Assembly (NCBI GenBank): GCA_032358255.1
Contig: JAULBX010000670.1
Span: 94,871-158,870, forward strand
Length of the DNA: 64,000 bases
Direction of reading: 5' to 3'
Source: Heterotrichella gracilis
Lineage: Eukaryota > Sar > Xanthophyceae > Tribonematales > Xanthonemataceae
In this document: positions 2,446 through 55,300 of the stretch, in pieces
How the letters are laid out: the number at the start of each line of letters is the position of its first letter
How positions within the stretch are numbered: the stretch's first letter is position 1
Notes under the pieces: generated by a model
What the model was told of the DNA's origin: nothing
Database searches by the model: none
Seen by the model: the letters and a program-made list of their open reading frames with translations, nothing else
Position numbers and translations under genes: made by a program

Positions 2446-3844
2446 TCACAATGGCCAGCTGGCAGTGCGGCGCGCATGAAGCGATGGCTGGCACGTGGGT
2501 GGCAACAGGGTGACTGGGTTTTAAAACGCCGGCGGTGGGCCAGCAAGCGCTTGAGCCTGAGCCAGCAAGAACATTTCTGAAATGTTCTTTGAATCAAACG
2601 CATGCGTGAGCCAGCAAGTATGCCAGTGCCTGAGTCAGCCAAGTGACCAGTAACAGTCAACTTCTGGTACTGATGGTCCCCTGGGGCCCGAGCACCAGTT
2701 GTGTAGGGCACTGCCAGCCCGGGGCCCCTCAGCCCTTGCCAAGGGCGGCCCTTTAAGGGCGGCACCTGCGATGCAGTCCCTTTTCTTTCTTTCTTCTTGT
2801 GATGGTGCTTGACAACTCAGCTCAATTGCTCAAACTGTGACAGAGACTCTGTAGACACAATGATTGTCATTTCGTGTGTATTCTAAACACCCACTCATTG
2901 AGCAAGGCGGCCTGCTTCCGTCTTGAGTCACTCAATGACGGTCATTGCCATGCTGAGCATCAGCCTTGTGTTCCAGCATAACAATCACTCCCGGTGTAAA
3001 GTCTGAGAGCAGGCGGGATGATAACCAACACAATGTGATGTGAAATCCCCCACGCTGGGGTCATCGAACTGATTTAATGCACATGCTGTGAATCAACCGT
3101 CATAATGGTGCTGTTGCAGAGTTTAACCTCGTCAGTGCCATGAGGGTTTAGTTTAGCAAGGTTGAACCAGATATGGTACAACTTGCAACTAATTCAGAGT
3201 TGAGAGGCAAGCCAGTTGCCTGCTGGTTGCGGTTCCTTGGTGTAAAATCCACTGGGACAGTTGGCAGTGAAAAATCGCACACATAGCAAACTATGTATCC
3301 CTTGCTGCAGCGTGCACACTAGTACACGTGACCATAATTTGCAGAGTACATGTTATCACATACTCTCTAGAAAATTGTCCTACAAGCCCCAGCTTCATTA
3401 AAAAGCTTATACAGCTGCTGTTGCAAATGAAAGAAAAAATCCGCGTATACACCCATGTAATTCAGTGCGACCTTGTTGAAAGACGAAAGTCTGCAACTGA
3501 TAGCACTCCCACCCAACAAGCATTCATACAGACACATGGAGTGTTCTTGCTGCATTTCTGTCTTGGCAAAAACACACACCATTTGCATGATCGGCAGACA
3601 TTCCAGACAACAATACTGCGGCATCCTCCGCCAGCCGTTCCACGCCATGATTGCATGTGAAAGCTCTTGCCCGACTGTTTTTGTCTGCCAACAATCTCAC
3701 GGGCAAAACTTCTCAAGAAAGGACACCTGATGCGCTCTCAGGAACTCACTGAAAGCAGAAGAAAAAGGAAACGGAAACCAGAATCTGACAGAGTGGCAGG
3801 CCTTTGGCATTCCCAAGTGCCGTCCCAAAGTGAAAAGCACATTT
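2446..3844. other. intergenic region between MSH5 and the TIC-like gene
   Basis: This is the space between two converging genes. It has lower GC than the flanks and only short overlapping reading frames with no recognisable protein. It presumably holds both 3' untranslated regions. I see no RNA gene or repeat in it. Confidence 0.5.
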
Positions 3845-45900: not shown

Positions 45901-48900
45901 ATGCCTACATTGAAGTGGGAACAACTGTGCGCCCCCCCAGCAGCTCCAATGCCCCTCTACGCCTGCCTCGTCAGCAGCAGCAAGCGAGTCCAGGAGCTAG
46001 AAGGGTTTGTGCTCCCAGAGCTCCTAGCGCTGCTTGAGTCTTATACCCTCTTGGTGTCAGATCCAGCCGCCAGTGATGGCAAGTCAGTGACAGTGGCAGA
46101 CACCCTTCCCACCACCAGCAACGGTCTGGGGAAGGGTGGTGGGAACCCCACCACTAGCACGGCGCGTGAAGTTGAAGGCGGGAGCAGTGACAGTGTAAGC
46201 GCCAGTCAAGTGCAGCACACCAGTAGCGCTGCGCACCGACTTGAAGGCGGGAGCAGTCTCAGCGCCAGCCAATTGCTGCATGGGGAACACAACGTTCCTC
46301 AACTGCAGCTCCTATCGCTTGATGGTCCCCATCAGTCACTTGATGGTCCCCATCAATCAGCCAAGCAGCAGGGCCACCATGAGAAGGGAGAGGGGCAGCA
46401 CCAAGGGGTAGTAGCAGAGATGGAGCTGGTGGGTCGGCAGTGCATTGTGTGGGTGAGGGGTGCGAGCGCCGGTCAGATGCAGTGGGGGGCCTCCAGGAGC
46501 GCACTGCTGGCGAGCATTGTCCAGGTACCGTAGGCCAATGGGCACATAGCTTGCGCACATGATGGGGCCACTGGCATCGTCATGGCTGCACTTGGTGCAA
46601 GGTTCGAAATCGTTACCCTCCCCATGCAGCCAGCCTGTCACATTTGAGGCATGGGAAACTTTGTGATGGTGCATGTGGGTGCGCTTCCTTTCACATCTTG
46701 GCAGGTGGGGTGGCCGCCCCTGTCAGCATGGAGCTAGGGCCCCGCGGTTGCTCATCATTGGTTCTGAATGGGTATGCATGCAAACCTGAGTACAAAGCAC
46801 ATAGGTGGGTGGCTGTGGCCTAACCCATGTCCACCTCCGATCCCTCCCCTGCAGGTCATCTGTGACTGCACCTCCATTGATGATGCCATACCCGCCATGC
46901 AAGCAGCGGTGGAGCACCCACATGCTTGCCATGTGCACCTATTGGCCTGCTCAGCCAAGCAAGGCACAAAAGCATCATCTGGCAGGCTAAAACAGCACCT
47001 CACCCGAGCAGGCATTGGGTGCGATCCAGCAGGCAATGGAGTGCATCTTTCCATCCTGGAAGCAGGTGGGAATGCATATGCTGCAGCAGGGGTTGATACA
47101 AATGGAGTGTAGGAGGGTCGGTGGAAATTAACCTAGCTATGGGAGGCATGTGAAGGCCATAGCTGTAATTGGTGGCAAGACGAGATTTGCTGAAGACCAG
47201 CCATCAATGTGCACCACCAGCTGTGTTATGACCATGTTTGTGACCACAACCCCATGATGCAACTGATCTACAAGTGGCTAACTTTACTATAATGTTTCTC
47301 AATGTTCTTATAACCACGTTGCCCTGTCGTGCAGATGGGAGGGTGGTTGTTGGTTGCCAGGTGGCGCCCTGTCAGCGCCTGTGGCTGGCACATGGCACCT
47401 TCAGGGCATCACATGGGCCCACCTCCCTCAAACCTGAAGCAGCGCTGCTCACTGCCAATTTGGCAAGGGTGAAACCGGTGCGGTTTGCTTGCATTTTGTG
47501 TGATTTTGTACATTGAAGTTGTGTGTACGTACATGGCCCAGAGTGCAAGACAGGCGCTCCATTGCTGGAATGCGTGCAATTTACCTGGTCAAAATGGATG
47601 ATTGCTGTTTGGTGTGCAGGGCGATGTTGTGTTGGACCCTTGCGTAGGGTCTGGTAGCCTCATGCAGGTAGGGTTGGGACTGTATATCCTGGGAAAATTG
47701 CCAGCCAGTATGACTGAGAAAAACACTCAAGACGTTTGGAGAGCTGCAAGCGGCAAACGTCTGGATATGCTCTGCAGGCAACTATTTATATTTGCTCAGA
47801 CATGGTCATATAATGATATGAAATTGATTGTAGGAGTAAAAGTAACCATAGTTTGAGATTGTAAGACGTGCATAGTACTTTATACAAAAAGTAGTGATTT
47901 GAGGGATACATACATTTGTGCAGGCTGCTACGGGTGTGGGGGCAATGGTGACCATTGGCGGGGATACAAGCGCTGCATTCTATCCCCAGCAGCAGCCACC
48001 TGGCAGTGACCTCCAGGTGGCAGATCTGCAGCAGCCCGCGTGGAGGCCAAACACATTTGATGCCATTCTGTGTGACCTCCCCTACGGCTACAGGACAAAG
48101 ATTGATGGTAAGCCCCCTTGACAATTTGCTGTGGTGATGACACAGCATGAACACACCCAACTGCGTGTGTACAGTGGCGCTACGGATTAATTGCATATCC
48201 AGGATGGAATGGGTTACATGCAAGCCTGCACTTTCCAATTAACTGCCTTGCCATACTCTTAGCACATATAAATGTTGTTAGTGGACATATACCGCTACAC
48301 ACATATGAAGCATTGTCAGACATCAACAGAGAGTCTCATTTGAAAGGTCCCCCCAGGGACACCAGTTGGCGGAGAGCGGAATGGTCCCGGACCTATGGTG
48401 CACCAATCCCCTAGAGACCCCCGTGTGCCTCCACTCAACTGTGTTCTCATTGCTGCGTTCCTCTCCCCAGGCACCCATTCAGGACCCGCCACCTGGCAAC
48501 ACATGGCCACCAGCATCATCCACATGGCTGCTGCTGCTCTGCTGCCCGGACGACACATGGCGTGTTGGTTGCCCTGTGATGCAGACGTGGCGGGGCAGTG
48601 GCTGTGGCTGGAGGGGCAGTGCTTTGCCTGTGCGCCACCTGGCGGGCTTCAGCTGATCGGCCTCATTCCCGAGGCGCGTGCGCAGGTGAGACACCCTAAA
48701 GGGTTAAGCTTCTTCTTGGGAAAGAAGCCTGCGCCAGGCCAGGACAGGTGCATTGCGCCTGGGTGGGGTTGAGGAATCCAGGGTTGCAGTTGCGCACGCT
48801 TTGGGTAGAGGTAAAGCTGATTGCATCAAGCAGCATACAAATCATGCATCATTCATAACTGAATTTCGATCGAATATGTGTGCAGGGTTTTAAGCGAGCG

Positions 48901-50852
48901 GTGGCGGTGTTTAGGAAAACTGCCGACATCTCTGCCCATGCCACTCCCCTGCCAGTCAGCCACAAATGGAAAACTCAAGGCAGGTGCCATGCCCAGCAGA
49001 CCGCCAGCGTCTCAGGTGGTGAGGAAATTTCCATCCCCACTGAAAACGCTGCTGGTCCTCAGCGAATGCGAGCGGAAGGATATGGGAAAAGCAGGCGCCA
49101 GTTGACAGGAGCACAGGCAGACATTTGGAGGTACTAAGAGTGCCTCTTTTCCACTTAAATGGCCATAAACCCTAAACCCTGGACCGCTTGGCTGAAGCTC
49201 TGTTTAGCTGTCGCCCATGCTGCAAGTAGAATGAGCGACCACACGGGCCTTCCTTGGGTACCTTTTCCACCCCATTTCAACTACATTTGCAGGGTGGCAT
49301 GGGTGGGCGACCTGGCTGCCATACGGGCCTTCCTGGCGGATGGGGGTGACGTAAATGCCAGGGATTCCAAGGGCCAGACCCCCCTCCAGTTTGCTGCCGG
49401 GTATGGGAGGTGTGCCGCTGTGCAGCTGCTGTTGGAGGGGCATGCGGATGCAAATGCTGCGCATGATGAAGGTGAGGTGGACAAGGGTGCTAGCCTGGTC
49501 TAAGGAGAGTTTCTGACCCTGCTTTAAACGGGTTTTAAGTCAGAAATTGTGTTGCGCACGATGAAGGTAAGGGGAGCAATTAGTGCCTGGGTTGGTTTAG
49601 CGCTTTGGTCCGGCAATCGTTATGCGCCACTTGAGAATGCTGTGTCAAATTGTGCTTGCAAAGCACTGGCAATGACTGTTAATCCCCAGGAAATACCCAC
49701 AGCCGGGGCATTGTGCACCATGTATATCACCCTCATCATGTCCTCTTTCTCTTGATTTCAACTGCACAGCCTCCAGCAAATCCTATGGCTCTCAAGAGCA
49801 AGCCCCACCAACCCTCCCTCCTCCCCTGCAGTAAAAATGACCCCCCTGCATCGCGCCGCCTCCTACGGCCACGCTGACGTCATCGCCCTGCTCATGTCAT
49901 CACACGCTGACGTGGCAGCACTCAACTCCCGGGGCCAATCAGCCATCCACTGCTGTGCCGAATTTGGGCACGTGGCGGCGGCTCGGCTGGTGCTGGCTGG
50001 TGTGGTGGGGGGTGTGATGGGGCGGATGGTGGCGCGGGATGTGGTGGAGGGCTACACCCCGCTGCACTATGCTGCCAGATGGGGCTATGAGGAGGTGGGT
50101 TGCCAGGCTGGGGTGGTATCGCAGTGTGATGCTGGGGCACAGTGGTACAGGTTGATGCTGGAGTGCAGAGTAGGGTAATGGCTGGTTAGGTGTGTGGCGC
50201 TGGAGCCGGATAATCCTAGATGCATAAGGGTACCGCCAAGGTGCATTGTAGGGCAAGCTGGCAGCGCTGTGACTGGTGACTGGTGCATGGTGTGCAGTGG
50301 AACCGGTACTTGTTGAAATAACGGTATTATCGTTGTTGGAATATATGGTAACAATCAATGTGTTGCCCTTCAAGCGGTGTTCCGGTAGGGAGTTGTTAAG
50401 TGAAAGCTTCATATGAGACTAGTGCACATGACATGCCGACCCTCCTTTACCATGTCACTGTCCCCCCCCTGCAGATGATTCCCCTGCTCATCAGCCCGCC
50501 ATGCCACATGGACCCCAACGCCACAACCTCCCCTGCTGCGGGCTGCATAACGCCAGCCCACCTGGCAGCACGCTGGGGACACCTGGCATCCCTGCGCACA
50601 TTGGTAGATTTGGGTGCTGACTGCACGCTGATATCGCATGGCCCAGGGGAGGAAAAATGCGGCTCGTGCCGAGGGGAGGAAAATGGGGTTTCCAGGCAGG
50701 GGAGTGAGGGCGCGCCTGGGGTGATGGCAGGGTGTGGGCATGTGGGGGCGTCACCCAACGGGGGCGGGGGTGGGTCTACCCCATTGATGGAGGCGGTTGT
50801 GTGGAGGCGGAAGGACTGTGTGGCGTTTCTGGAGCAATTAATTGGAGCTTGA
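45901..50852 (+). CDS. TRMT11: TRM11-type tRNA guanine-N2 methyltransferase fused to ankyrin repeats
   Basis: TRM11 (with TRM112) makes N2-methylguanosine at tRNA position 10. Ten exons join in phase to 826 residues: 45901-46524, 46855-47065, 47335-47468, 47620-47667, 47924-48107, 48471-48685, 48886-49130, 49293-49471, 49832-50094 and 50475-50852. Exons 1-2 match the N-terminal THUMP-like part loosely and hold a low-complexity insert with repeated SLDGPHQ. Exon 3 has GPTSLKPEAALLTANLARV, matching the TRM11 block before the methyltransferase domain. Exon 4 has the SAM motif VLDPCVGSGSLM. Exon 5 has FDAILCDLPYGYR; TRM11 usually has DPPYG, and DLPFG occurs in THUMPD3. Exon 6 continues the fold. 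Exons 8-10 encode four to five ankyrin repeats (TPLQFAAGYGRCAAVQLLLE, TPLHRAASYGHADVIALL, TPLHYAARWGYEE, TPAHLAARWGHLASLRTL). The exon 7/8 join gives DIWR-VAWVGDLAAIR, a normal ankyrin entry. If exon 7 is not spliced it stops two codons later, so two separate genes remain possible. Confidence 0.78.
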
Positions 50853-51538: not shown

Positions 51539-51633
51539 CATTGCCACCTATTAAAAAATTATGAGTTGTGTCACAGTGTGTCACAATGGGACACACTGTA
51601 ACACAACTCACAATTTTTTAATAGGTGGCAATG
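51539..51633. repeat. 44-nt inverted repeat with 7-nt loop (hairpin)
   Basis: Left arm 51539-51582 and right arm 51590-51633 are reverse complements at 42 of 44 positions. Arms begin CATTGCCACCTATTAAAAAA. The tight loop and long arms suggest a foldback element or small-RNA precursor. It lies 0.7-0.8 kb from the ends of the TRM11-ankyrin and acyl-CoA synthetase genes, which converge here. Confidence 0.92.
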
Positions 51634-52392: not shown

Positions 52393-55300
52393 TCACCCCT
52401 CCCTGGCAGCTGCCGCGGCATTGACTTTCTTGTACATGGCATCGATGCTCTTCTGGTACTTCTTCAGCAGCTGGGGGCGCTTGAGCTTGAGCGAGGGGGT
52501 CAAAAAGTCGTTCTCGGGGGTCCACGCCTCATGCTCCAAATGCACCGCCCTGGGGAACTCGAATCCCTTGATGCGAGCCCCTTTGCCGGTCTTGGACAGC
52601 TCGGAGAGGACATAGTCAGAGACCTGCGGGAGACAAGGGTTTAGGGTTTAGGGTTTATAGCATACACACTGCACACTAAACCCTAACGTACCCACAGCCT
52701 GCAGGTGACACGGGTTTGGGGTTTAGGGTCTGTAATATACACACTGCACCCTAAACCCTAACGTATGCGGTAGCCTGCGGGTGGGAGTGGGCGGGAAGGG
52801 AGATCAACGGCGGTGGAGGGGAACTTTTGTCCAGTGTGCTGTGACGTGAGATGGCTGTTTATATAAGCCTTGGCAAGGGTCATAGAAGAACATATGACCC
52901 TTTTGGTGACTTAATATATTGGGATTAACATCCTTTTCTGATAGTTCTCTTGTTGATCTGGGCAGCATACCCCAAGGCTAATGAAGTTCAATAAGATCCA
53001 TAGTATATATCAACCAGACATCACTCGTTTTGATTCGTCTCATACTTGCAGTGCGTGGAGTGAAACCCTACCTTGGGGTTTGCGCACAGCTCCTCCAGGC
53101 CCCCCTCCAGCCCCTCCCCCTTGGCCCACTCCTTCAGGTTGCGCGCGTCCGGCACCACCACCGCCACTAGCGCATTCTCGTAGCTGTTGCCATAGATCCA
53201 GACCTGCAGAGCGTGGCACATCATACCCTTAGCGTTTGCACACCATACTCTGATGAACTGTGCACAACACCCACCGTGCTTGACCATTTACGGAAAGTCC
53301 TTTTCACCCCTTCCCTACACCCTACACAGGGGTACGGATGTGTGCCATACCTGCTCCACCAGCAGGCAGCGCCCAAACACGTTTTCAAGATTCTCGGCAG
53401 CGATGTACTCCCCTGCACAGCCACAAAAGGGGGTCGCACTGTCCTCGCATGGAACAAAATGGGGGGAAGGGGTGGGGAATAATTTGTACAGAAAGCAAGG
53501 TATTCCAACCCGGAACACCAATTGGAAACTCTGTTTCACCACAGGCCCTTTGTTCCATACCAGGAAACGGTGATCACATTGCGCCAGCTTAAAGACGTTT
53601 ACCATACAGTCCCATGTACATGAAACAACATGGTACATTACTAATCGTAAAAGCATTGATTACCTTGCGCCAGCTTGAAGATGTTTTTCTTCCTGTCCAC
53701 GATATTGAGGCCACCCTGGGGAGTCAGCTCGCCAATGTCGCCCGTGTGGAACCACCCGTCAGCATCTGCAGCAACATTACACCCCCATTCAACATTTCAA
53801 ATCCCCATTCCAAATTCAATGGCATGGAACAGGACAACGTGCCCTGTGTATATCACCACATACTATTTGTAATTCTGCCCCAAACATTAGCCCAATACCA
53901 ATGCCAACCCCAACAGCCAAACCTTGGAAAGCCCTCCCCCACACCTTACACAGGCAAATCTAGCCAGTCATTGACACCCCAGACCCCGAACCCTAGCCAA
54001 GGATCCCCCTCAAAACCCTACCGATTGCCTCCTTGGTGAGGTCATCTTGCTTGTGGTAGCCCTTGAACACCATGGGGCCCCGCAGGCAGATCTCGCCCCG
54101 GGAAGGGGTGCCGTGCGCATCATAGTTCAGCTCAGGCACGCTCTCAAACCTAAGGGGGAGTACGAAATTTCATCAGGTGGAGGTGAGGCGATTGGGGTGA
54201 TACGAGGACGCAAGGGCGCAGAACAGACCAAGAAACGTATAAGACTTCAACGGTTTTGAGGTTTGTGTTTTGAGGTTATTTAACATTTAGGGTCTGCAGA
54301 GTGCAATAGCAGGTCAGACAGGAGGCAAGAGGGGCAAGCCGCACAACTCCTTATCAGATAGCACCACCAAAGCTGTCCACGCCAAGCACAGGGCAACAGC
54401 AGGGCAGAGCAACAGCAGCAGCACCAGCACACACCTGAGCTCGGTGGGGGCCAGTGGGGGACCGACCGTCCCAAAGAAATCCGAGGTTGGCAGCGCAAGA
54501 AAGGAGGCGGCGCAGGTCTCTGTGAGGCCGTAACCCTGCGGAAAGGTTTTCCTGTGTTGGTGTAGGGTTCAGGGTTTTGGCATGCGCAAGGTCTCAGTGA
54601 ATATGTAATCCTGCAGGAGGTTATTAAATGGAGTGGGATGGCTTCAGGAGTTTGGTGAGGTATAGCAGCCAATATGATGCCGTGAGTAAAGGCGTTGCTG
54701 TTGATGCAATGCATGGTGGCCCTGAGGTACGCGGCCCGGAAGTACCGTACGCCTCGCTGGCAGTGGACAGAGGTGCACCACCCAGGGTCGCAGCCTGCCC
54801 ACTACCCTGCTGCACAAACGCCACTCCCCTCCCCTGCCACACACACAACAACAAAATGCCCTTCCTCTCCACCCCCCCCACCTCCCAATTCCCTACCTGG
54901 ATGACCGGAACACACATGGTGGCCCTGAGGTATGCCTCGCTGGCAGTGGACAGGGGCGCGCCCCCCGAGATCATGTAGCGCAGCCTGCCCCCAAAGCCTG
55001 CCCTGAACTTGTTGAACAGCAGCCAGTCCAGCAGGGGCGAGGCGGAGGAGATGGCCACCCCCGCGGTCATGCGCCTGATCTTGTAGGAGATCGACCATTG
55101 GATGATCTGTGATTGAAAGTGGGAGTCAAGGTTGGGTTGGGGTTCATTTGCATGGGCATGAAAATGGCAACGATATGATGAACAGCAGCTAGTCCAGCAG
55201 CAATACGGAGGGATGTCCAGTTCTAGCAGTGGATATTTGCAAAGCCCTACACTTCAAGCGGAAAGCCACCAAAACCCTGGCCACCCACGGTGGGCAGCAG

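Follow-up and report, generated by a model that had tools for sequence, protein, structure and literature searches.

Do the TRM11-like methyltransferase and the ankyrin repeats that follow one another at positions 45901-50852 (plus strand) of the window, i.e. the whole 64,000-nucleotide stretch of Heterotrichella gracilis DNA analysed here (contig JAULBX010000670.1, positions 94,871 to 158,870), form a single protein, and is this protein the TRM11 of the alga? The original prediction had proposed a methyltransferase-ankyrin fusion, and this is borne out by the fused relatives P0014 (Micractinium tetrahymenae ABPG75_010977), P0017 (Chlorella vulgaris D9Q98_006793) and P0024 (a metagenomic open reading frame, ORF). 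We consider the fusion established by comparison, not by transcript. It appears nearly certain from these comparisons that one gene encodes one fused protein; for the fused architecture and a Trm11-like kinship taken together, we estimate a probability of about 0.8.

Ten exons join in a single frame to give a predicted protein of 829 amino acids, every intron being of the GT-AG type:

45901-46524, plus strand: exon 1, N-terminal part and low-complexity insert (open frame, GT donor; N-terminus alignable to P0014, P0017 and P0024)
46855-47065, plus strand: exon 2, region before the methyltransferase domain, on the THUMP side (TIGR01177 profile match, residues 208-405)
47335-47477, plus strand: exon 3, start of the methyltransferase domain (GPTSLKPEAALLTANLARVKP; donor set at 47477)
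47620-47667, plus strand: exon 4, S-adenosylmethionine (SAM)-binding motif DPCVGSGS
47924-48107, plus strand: exon 5, motif II region and motif IV DLPYGYR
48471-48685, plus strand: exon 6, C-terminal half of the methyltransferase domain
48886-49130, plus strand: exon 7, last strand GFKRAVAVF, linker and conserved junction ADIWR (phase-2 donor GAG/GTACTA)
49131-49292, plus strand: intron 7, GT-AG, 162 bp, with an in-frame TAA at 49135-49137
49293-49471, plus strand: exon 8, first ankyrin repeats (VAWVGDLAAIR...)
49832-50094, plus strand: exon 9, middle ankyrin repeats
50475-50852, plus strand: exon 10, last ankyrin repeats, glycine-rich insert and stop TGA

As first proposed, exon 7 ends at 49130 within GAC ATT TGG AG/GTACTAA, two codons ahead of a stop, and splicing to 49293 keeps the phase, both the GT-AG boundaries and the joined translation agreeing with the product DIWR-VAWVGDLAAIR. 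The pyrimidine fraction at the acceptor of intron 7 is 0.69, with values of 0.5-1.0 in the other introns of the gene. The length of intron 7 is divisible by three and its in-frame stop lies close to its start, so that its retention would yield a tail-less, methyltransferase-only protein. Regarding the remaining choices within the model, two candidate donors of exon 3, at 47468 and 47477, both keep the phase, and the latter is favoured because VKP, retained only with 47477, aligns without gaps to the relatives. The first 16 residues are uncertain, since an alternative in-frame ATG at 45949 is nearer than 45901 to the beginnings of the relatives. The low-complexity insert of exon 1 (46084-46400) contains small internal repeats (EVEGGSS/RLEGGSS, and SLDGPHQ twice) and has no conserved counterpart in P0014, P0017 or P0024.

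The evidence for the join came from the relatives. A profile of the window enzyme and the TRM11 of the same genome found five proteins, including P0003, whose ORF terminates in IDVWR, similar to the ADIWR with which exon 7 closes. With P0003 as query, 21 rows were obtained, namely 17 of Chlorella type (a label given by similarity; P0003 is one of them), three of TRM11 type (P0022, P0023 and P0025) and P0024; the profile and P0003 searches covered at most 7997 candidates each, so that there are at least as many relatives as listed. Ankyrin domains are found in three of the 21 rows listed, P0014, P0017 and P0024, where a scan confirmed both domain types, and the same architecture is accordingly present in Micractinium and Chlorella, members of the green algae, in which the original prediction had suggested looking for it. 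IDVWR is present in all Chlorella-type rows but P0019, a shorter ORF. Past this motif, two of the 16 go on as AAWLGD into ankyrin repeats, six stop at R and eight continue otherwise, with W (five rows) or C (three rows) as the next residue; both residues imply a codon starting with TG, which fits read-through of a G/GTG donor. A phase-2 break of this kind (AG/GTAC) is also found in the window gene. Among the 14 unfused Chlorella-type ORFs with IDVWR, six end exactly at the junction. P0015 and the C. vulgaris protein P0017 are equal at 448 of 453 residues through IDVWR, after which P0017 enters the ankyrin repeats and P0015 a different sequence; a weak local match beyond the junction (40/97, score 42) was taken as low-complexity similarity.

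In P0024, the methyltransferase, NIWKASWKGD and the ankyrin repeats follow each other in one frame, with no junction intron. The tail of the window protein scored 126, 107 and 100 bits against the fused tails of P0024, P0014 and P0017, respectively, and at best 59.7 bits against 12 other ankyrin loci of its own genome (12 of 15 such matches), a comparison that is tilted toward the fusion because all 12 loci are single-exon. A cyclic-shift control of the repeat register placed the true register on top for all three fused relatives (340.5, 327.5 and 301.5); it was given little weight because a 231-residue, near-register shift in P0024 scored 300. The end of exon 7 and the repeats downstream are conserved across other species, which is more than chance would give, and the fused gene is very probably a real second TRM11-like protein, not an accident of gene prediction.

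Taken by itself, the window would also allow two ORFs, because a frame opened by ATG 49159 within intron 7, absent from the original prediction, reads in the ankyrin phase through 49471. A TRM11-like gene could thus end at TAA 49135-49137 and be followed by an ankyrin gene starting at ATG 49159 or at ATG 49231, which has an A at -3. We consider such neighbouring genes highly improbable: the gap of 21 or 93 bases would have to hold both a terminator and a promoter, annotated relatives are fused, P0024 even without the intron, and all but one of the 17 Chlorella-type rows preserve IDVWR. TGTAA, the polyadenylation signal in green algae, is absent from the plus strand between 47860 and 51597, a point of small weight since over 700 bases downstream of the fused gene's stop are likewise devoid of it. 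Separate translation of the ankyrin ORF from a bicistronic messenger RNA would accommodate so short a gap, and a preprint reports median gaps of 183 nt in C. reinhardtii and 40 nt in A. protothecoides for bicistronic loci of green algae, translated by leaky scanning past first ORFs with medians of 357 and 291 nt (PMC11291117). The first ORF would here be 1677 nt long, with 32 ATGs (11 in frame), far from these short leaky-scanning ORFs, and the relatives are fused, which makes this explanation just as hard to sustain as that of two genes.

The domain content of the fused protein is uneven in strength. Ank_2 was detected in the joined protein with an E-value (E) of 1.2e-32 (112.8 bits; cut-off 27.3) and Pfam Ank in six stretches. 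Alignment to the ortholog P0014, modelled with seven helix pairs, indicates a tail of about seven repeats; its spread over three in-phase exons was correctly anticipated, the count of four to five repeats was too low. On the methyltransferase side, UPF0020 (PF01170) gave a weak Pfam match (E 1.8e-6, best stretch residues 302-341), and the NCBIfam methyltransferase family TIGR01177 matched with E 3.9e-11 and 42.8 bits, far below its cut-off of 316.55. The SAM motif and D[LI]PYG[YFV]R are intact in the window protein and its relatives. The window gene, like P0014, P0017 and P0024, combines a D[LI]PYG methyltransferase, a linker, an [IV]W[RK] junction and colinear ankyrin repeats, and these sequence features define a conserved group present in Chlorella, Micractinium and at least one more distant organism. 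Concerning the fold, the full P0014 model gave only ankyrin folds among the matches listed (Foldseek, VIA-align), and the methyltransferase part of a homolog was therefore modelled separately. The predicted fold of this homolog, P0008, matches archaeal Trm11 across the whole chain, including its ferredoxin-like and THUMP parts, and thus has the ferredoxin-like, THUMP and Rossmann methyltransferase composition of the Trm11 type.

TRM11 is the eukaryotic enzyme forming N2-methylguanosine (m2G) at tRNA position 10, while THUMPD2 and THUMPD3 form m2G in U6 small nuclear RNA (snRNA) and at tRNA position 6, respectively. Could the window gene then be the alga's own TRM11 with an acquired ankyrin tail? 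The overall fold and a clear profile homology to eukaryotic TRM11, over 306 profile columns, speak for it. By contrast, a canonical TRM11 with DPPYGVRAGGRK exists on a separate contig of the same genome (C896), without ankyrin repeats as far as reconstructed, and the six TRM11 rows form a clade of their own (99/97) that leaves out the window protein. Motif IV reads DLPYGYR in the window protein versus DPPYG in that TRM11 and in P0001, P0002, P0022, P0023 and P0025, five rows with no ankyrin in their precomputed Pfam domains. The N-terminal domain PF25904 is among the precomputed Pfam domains of four of these five (P0001, P0002, P0022 and P0023) and missing from those of P0025 and the family rows, although the local Pfam scan missed it even in P0001. 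A tailed TRM11 proper is therefore improbable. The initial identification stands as regards the Trm11-type fold and fails as regards TRM11 itself: judged from the tree and motifs, the window protein is a paralog or sister of TRM11, not its ortholog. At the canonical locus (L013), partial copies of its own exons were observed near CCCTAAA-like sequence (about 3035-3130, 3173-3270 and about 3390-3680), FCREVASSNRSVV occurring twice and TVGTDIDIRV three times.

Several observations weigh against a fused, Trm11-like family. A homology search with residues 170-560 of the window protein gave no match at E <= 0.001 among 7990 candidates scored, and the PF01170 and TIGR01177 searches of its own assembly did not list the window gene. 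The link to the relatives ran through P0003, not directly from the window protein; since the later profile and P0003 searches did find relatives, we read the failed direct search as a limit of divergence, not as absence. The structure models refer to two homologs, P0014 and P0008, and not to the window protein itself. The donor of intron 7 (GTACTA) has no G at +5, which is also true of that of intron 1 (GTACCG). In the tree, rooted on one archaeal row, the family together with P0004 is supported at 96/91, yet the best tree does not unite the 19 family rows in a single clade; a constraint uniting them is not rejected by the AU test (p 0.165), although just 8% of bootstrap trees show such a grouping. 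Four branches are long, that of the window copy reaching 2.0, and P0004, in which no ankyrin repeat is known, shares an unresolved fork with P0024. This more distant homolog has the motif DLPYGVR, an arginine-rich C-terminus and no ankyrin match in the domain scan, and its ORF may be either frame-shifted or truly tail-less. Finally, the window copy retains 14 of 20 family-invariant positions, with Ser in place of the second Asp of GSDID and Arg in place of one glycine.

From a mechanistic point of view, the protein would consist, in this order, of N-terminal ferredoxin-like and THUMP parts and a Rossmann methyltransferase of Trm11 type, connected by a flexible linker to some seven C-terminal ankyrin repeats. 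Given the fold and the intact SAM and DLPYG motifs, methylation of guanine N2 in tRNA or tRNA-like RNA, with SAM as donor, is expected, DLPYG being presumably compatible with activity in view of a similar motif in THUMPD3. We regard an active RNA guanine-N2 methyltransferase as rather likely; the window copy's own activity is less sure and may be weakened, in view of the 14 retained positions and the long branch. These same six deviations and branch length could indicate a catalytically dead methyltransferase part, kept as an RNA-binding scaffold for a partner of the ankyrin repeats, which the SAM motif and D[LI]PYG[YFV]R retained in the window protein and relatives render unlikely. In an active enzyme, Trm112 would probably still be the activator. 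A Trm112 gene is found in the same genome (C465, 32.5 bits), which means that the alga possesses the usual activator. Judging by what ankyrin repeats usually do, the stack most likely serves for protein docking, and the chances seem about even that it would recruit a partner bringing the enzyme to an RNA subset or a place; the anchoring role suggested for the tail is plausible, and the other suggested role, replacing or modulating the TRM112 surface, is hypothetical. More speculatively, and with rather low expectation, green algae and one or more further lineages may possess an additional Trm11-type enzyme with a specialised task, in which the ankyrin tail would choose or deliver the RNA (e.g., organellar tRNAs, a tRNA subset or an snRNA) and might make Trm112 less necessary or dispensable. 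If the junction intron were retained, translation would stop within two codons in the window gene and immediately in the six relatives ending at IDVWR, which could serve to switch the tail on or off.

Other observations concern the surroundings and the wider searches. Downstream of the gene, a 95-base near-perfect inverted repeat (51539-51633; 88 of 95 positions equal to the reverse complement) is present as a single genome copy, read on both strands in the genome search. A neighbouring short open frame on the minus strand (52393-52647; scanned over 52393-52644) has no Pfam match at E <= 0.001 and resembles the C-terminus of a long-chain acyl-CoA synthetase. The relatives, like the original prediction, suggest a green alga as the source of the gene. 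Locus L003 (C72) carries long intronless, bacterial-looking ORFs, one of them methylase-like with NPPY; the assembly may therefore not be purely algal. In prokaryote genomes, 25 pattern matches were obtained, none of them a relative. At least 29 loci, among at least 600 matching stretches, were found in viral contigs and were taken as generic methyltransferases, judged solely by which part of the query they matched, in most cases the region of the SAM motif.

What might have been a gene-model accident turned out to be a conserved architecture, and the alga has two enzymes of the Trm11 type, one of which is coupled to a protein-interaction module. Among the matches listed, no description of a TRM11- or THUMP-ankyrin fusion was found in the open-access literature, and the database names of the relatives, where shown, are "hypothetical protein" or domain names; this very probably represents a familiar enzyme fold joined to a conserved interaction tail, a combination so far undescribed as far as that literature goes. 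According to one source, the THUMP-related tRNA methyltransferases reported so far are all Rossmann enzymes producing m2G or N2,N2-dimethylguanosine (m22G), THUMP captures the CCA end, its spacing to the catalytic pocket sets the site, and target choice is currently explained by this geometry together with Trm112 (PMC9957541). A built-in interaction domain would offer another route to target choice, testable in Chlorella.

Compared with known systems, the archaeal Trm11 structures (6ZXV/6ZXW/6ZXY of A. fulgidus and 5E71 of T. kodakarensis) resemble the predicted P0008 fold over the whole chain, but are archaeal, have no ankyrin tail and share 14-20% identity with the P0008 model. Eukaryotic TRM11/TRMT11 has the same order of regions and is homologous over the profile columns given above; unlike the window protein, it forms a separate clade, with DPPYG in place of DLPYG and no ankyrin in the copies compared. 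P0017 and P0014 have the same methyltransferase-linker-ankyrin architecture and junction, and differ in their low-complexity inserts and by an identity of about 30-40% in the aligned parts. A methyltransferase is also joined to ankyrin repeats in Legionella RomA (SET plus ankyrin) and in EHMT1/GLP, whose ankyrin structures were among the structure matches of the full P0014 model and which carries a SET domain. Both RomA and EHMT1/GLP are, however, histone SET enzymes, with a catalytic fold unrelated to the Trm11 type.
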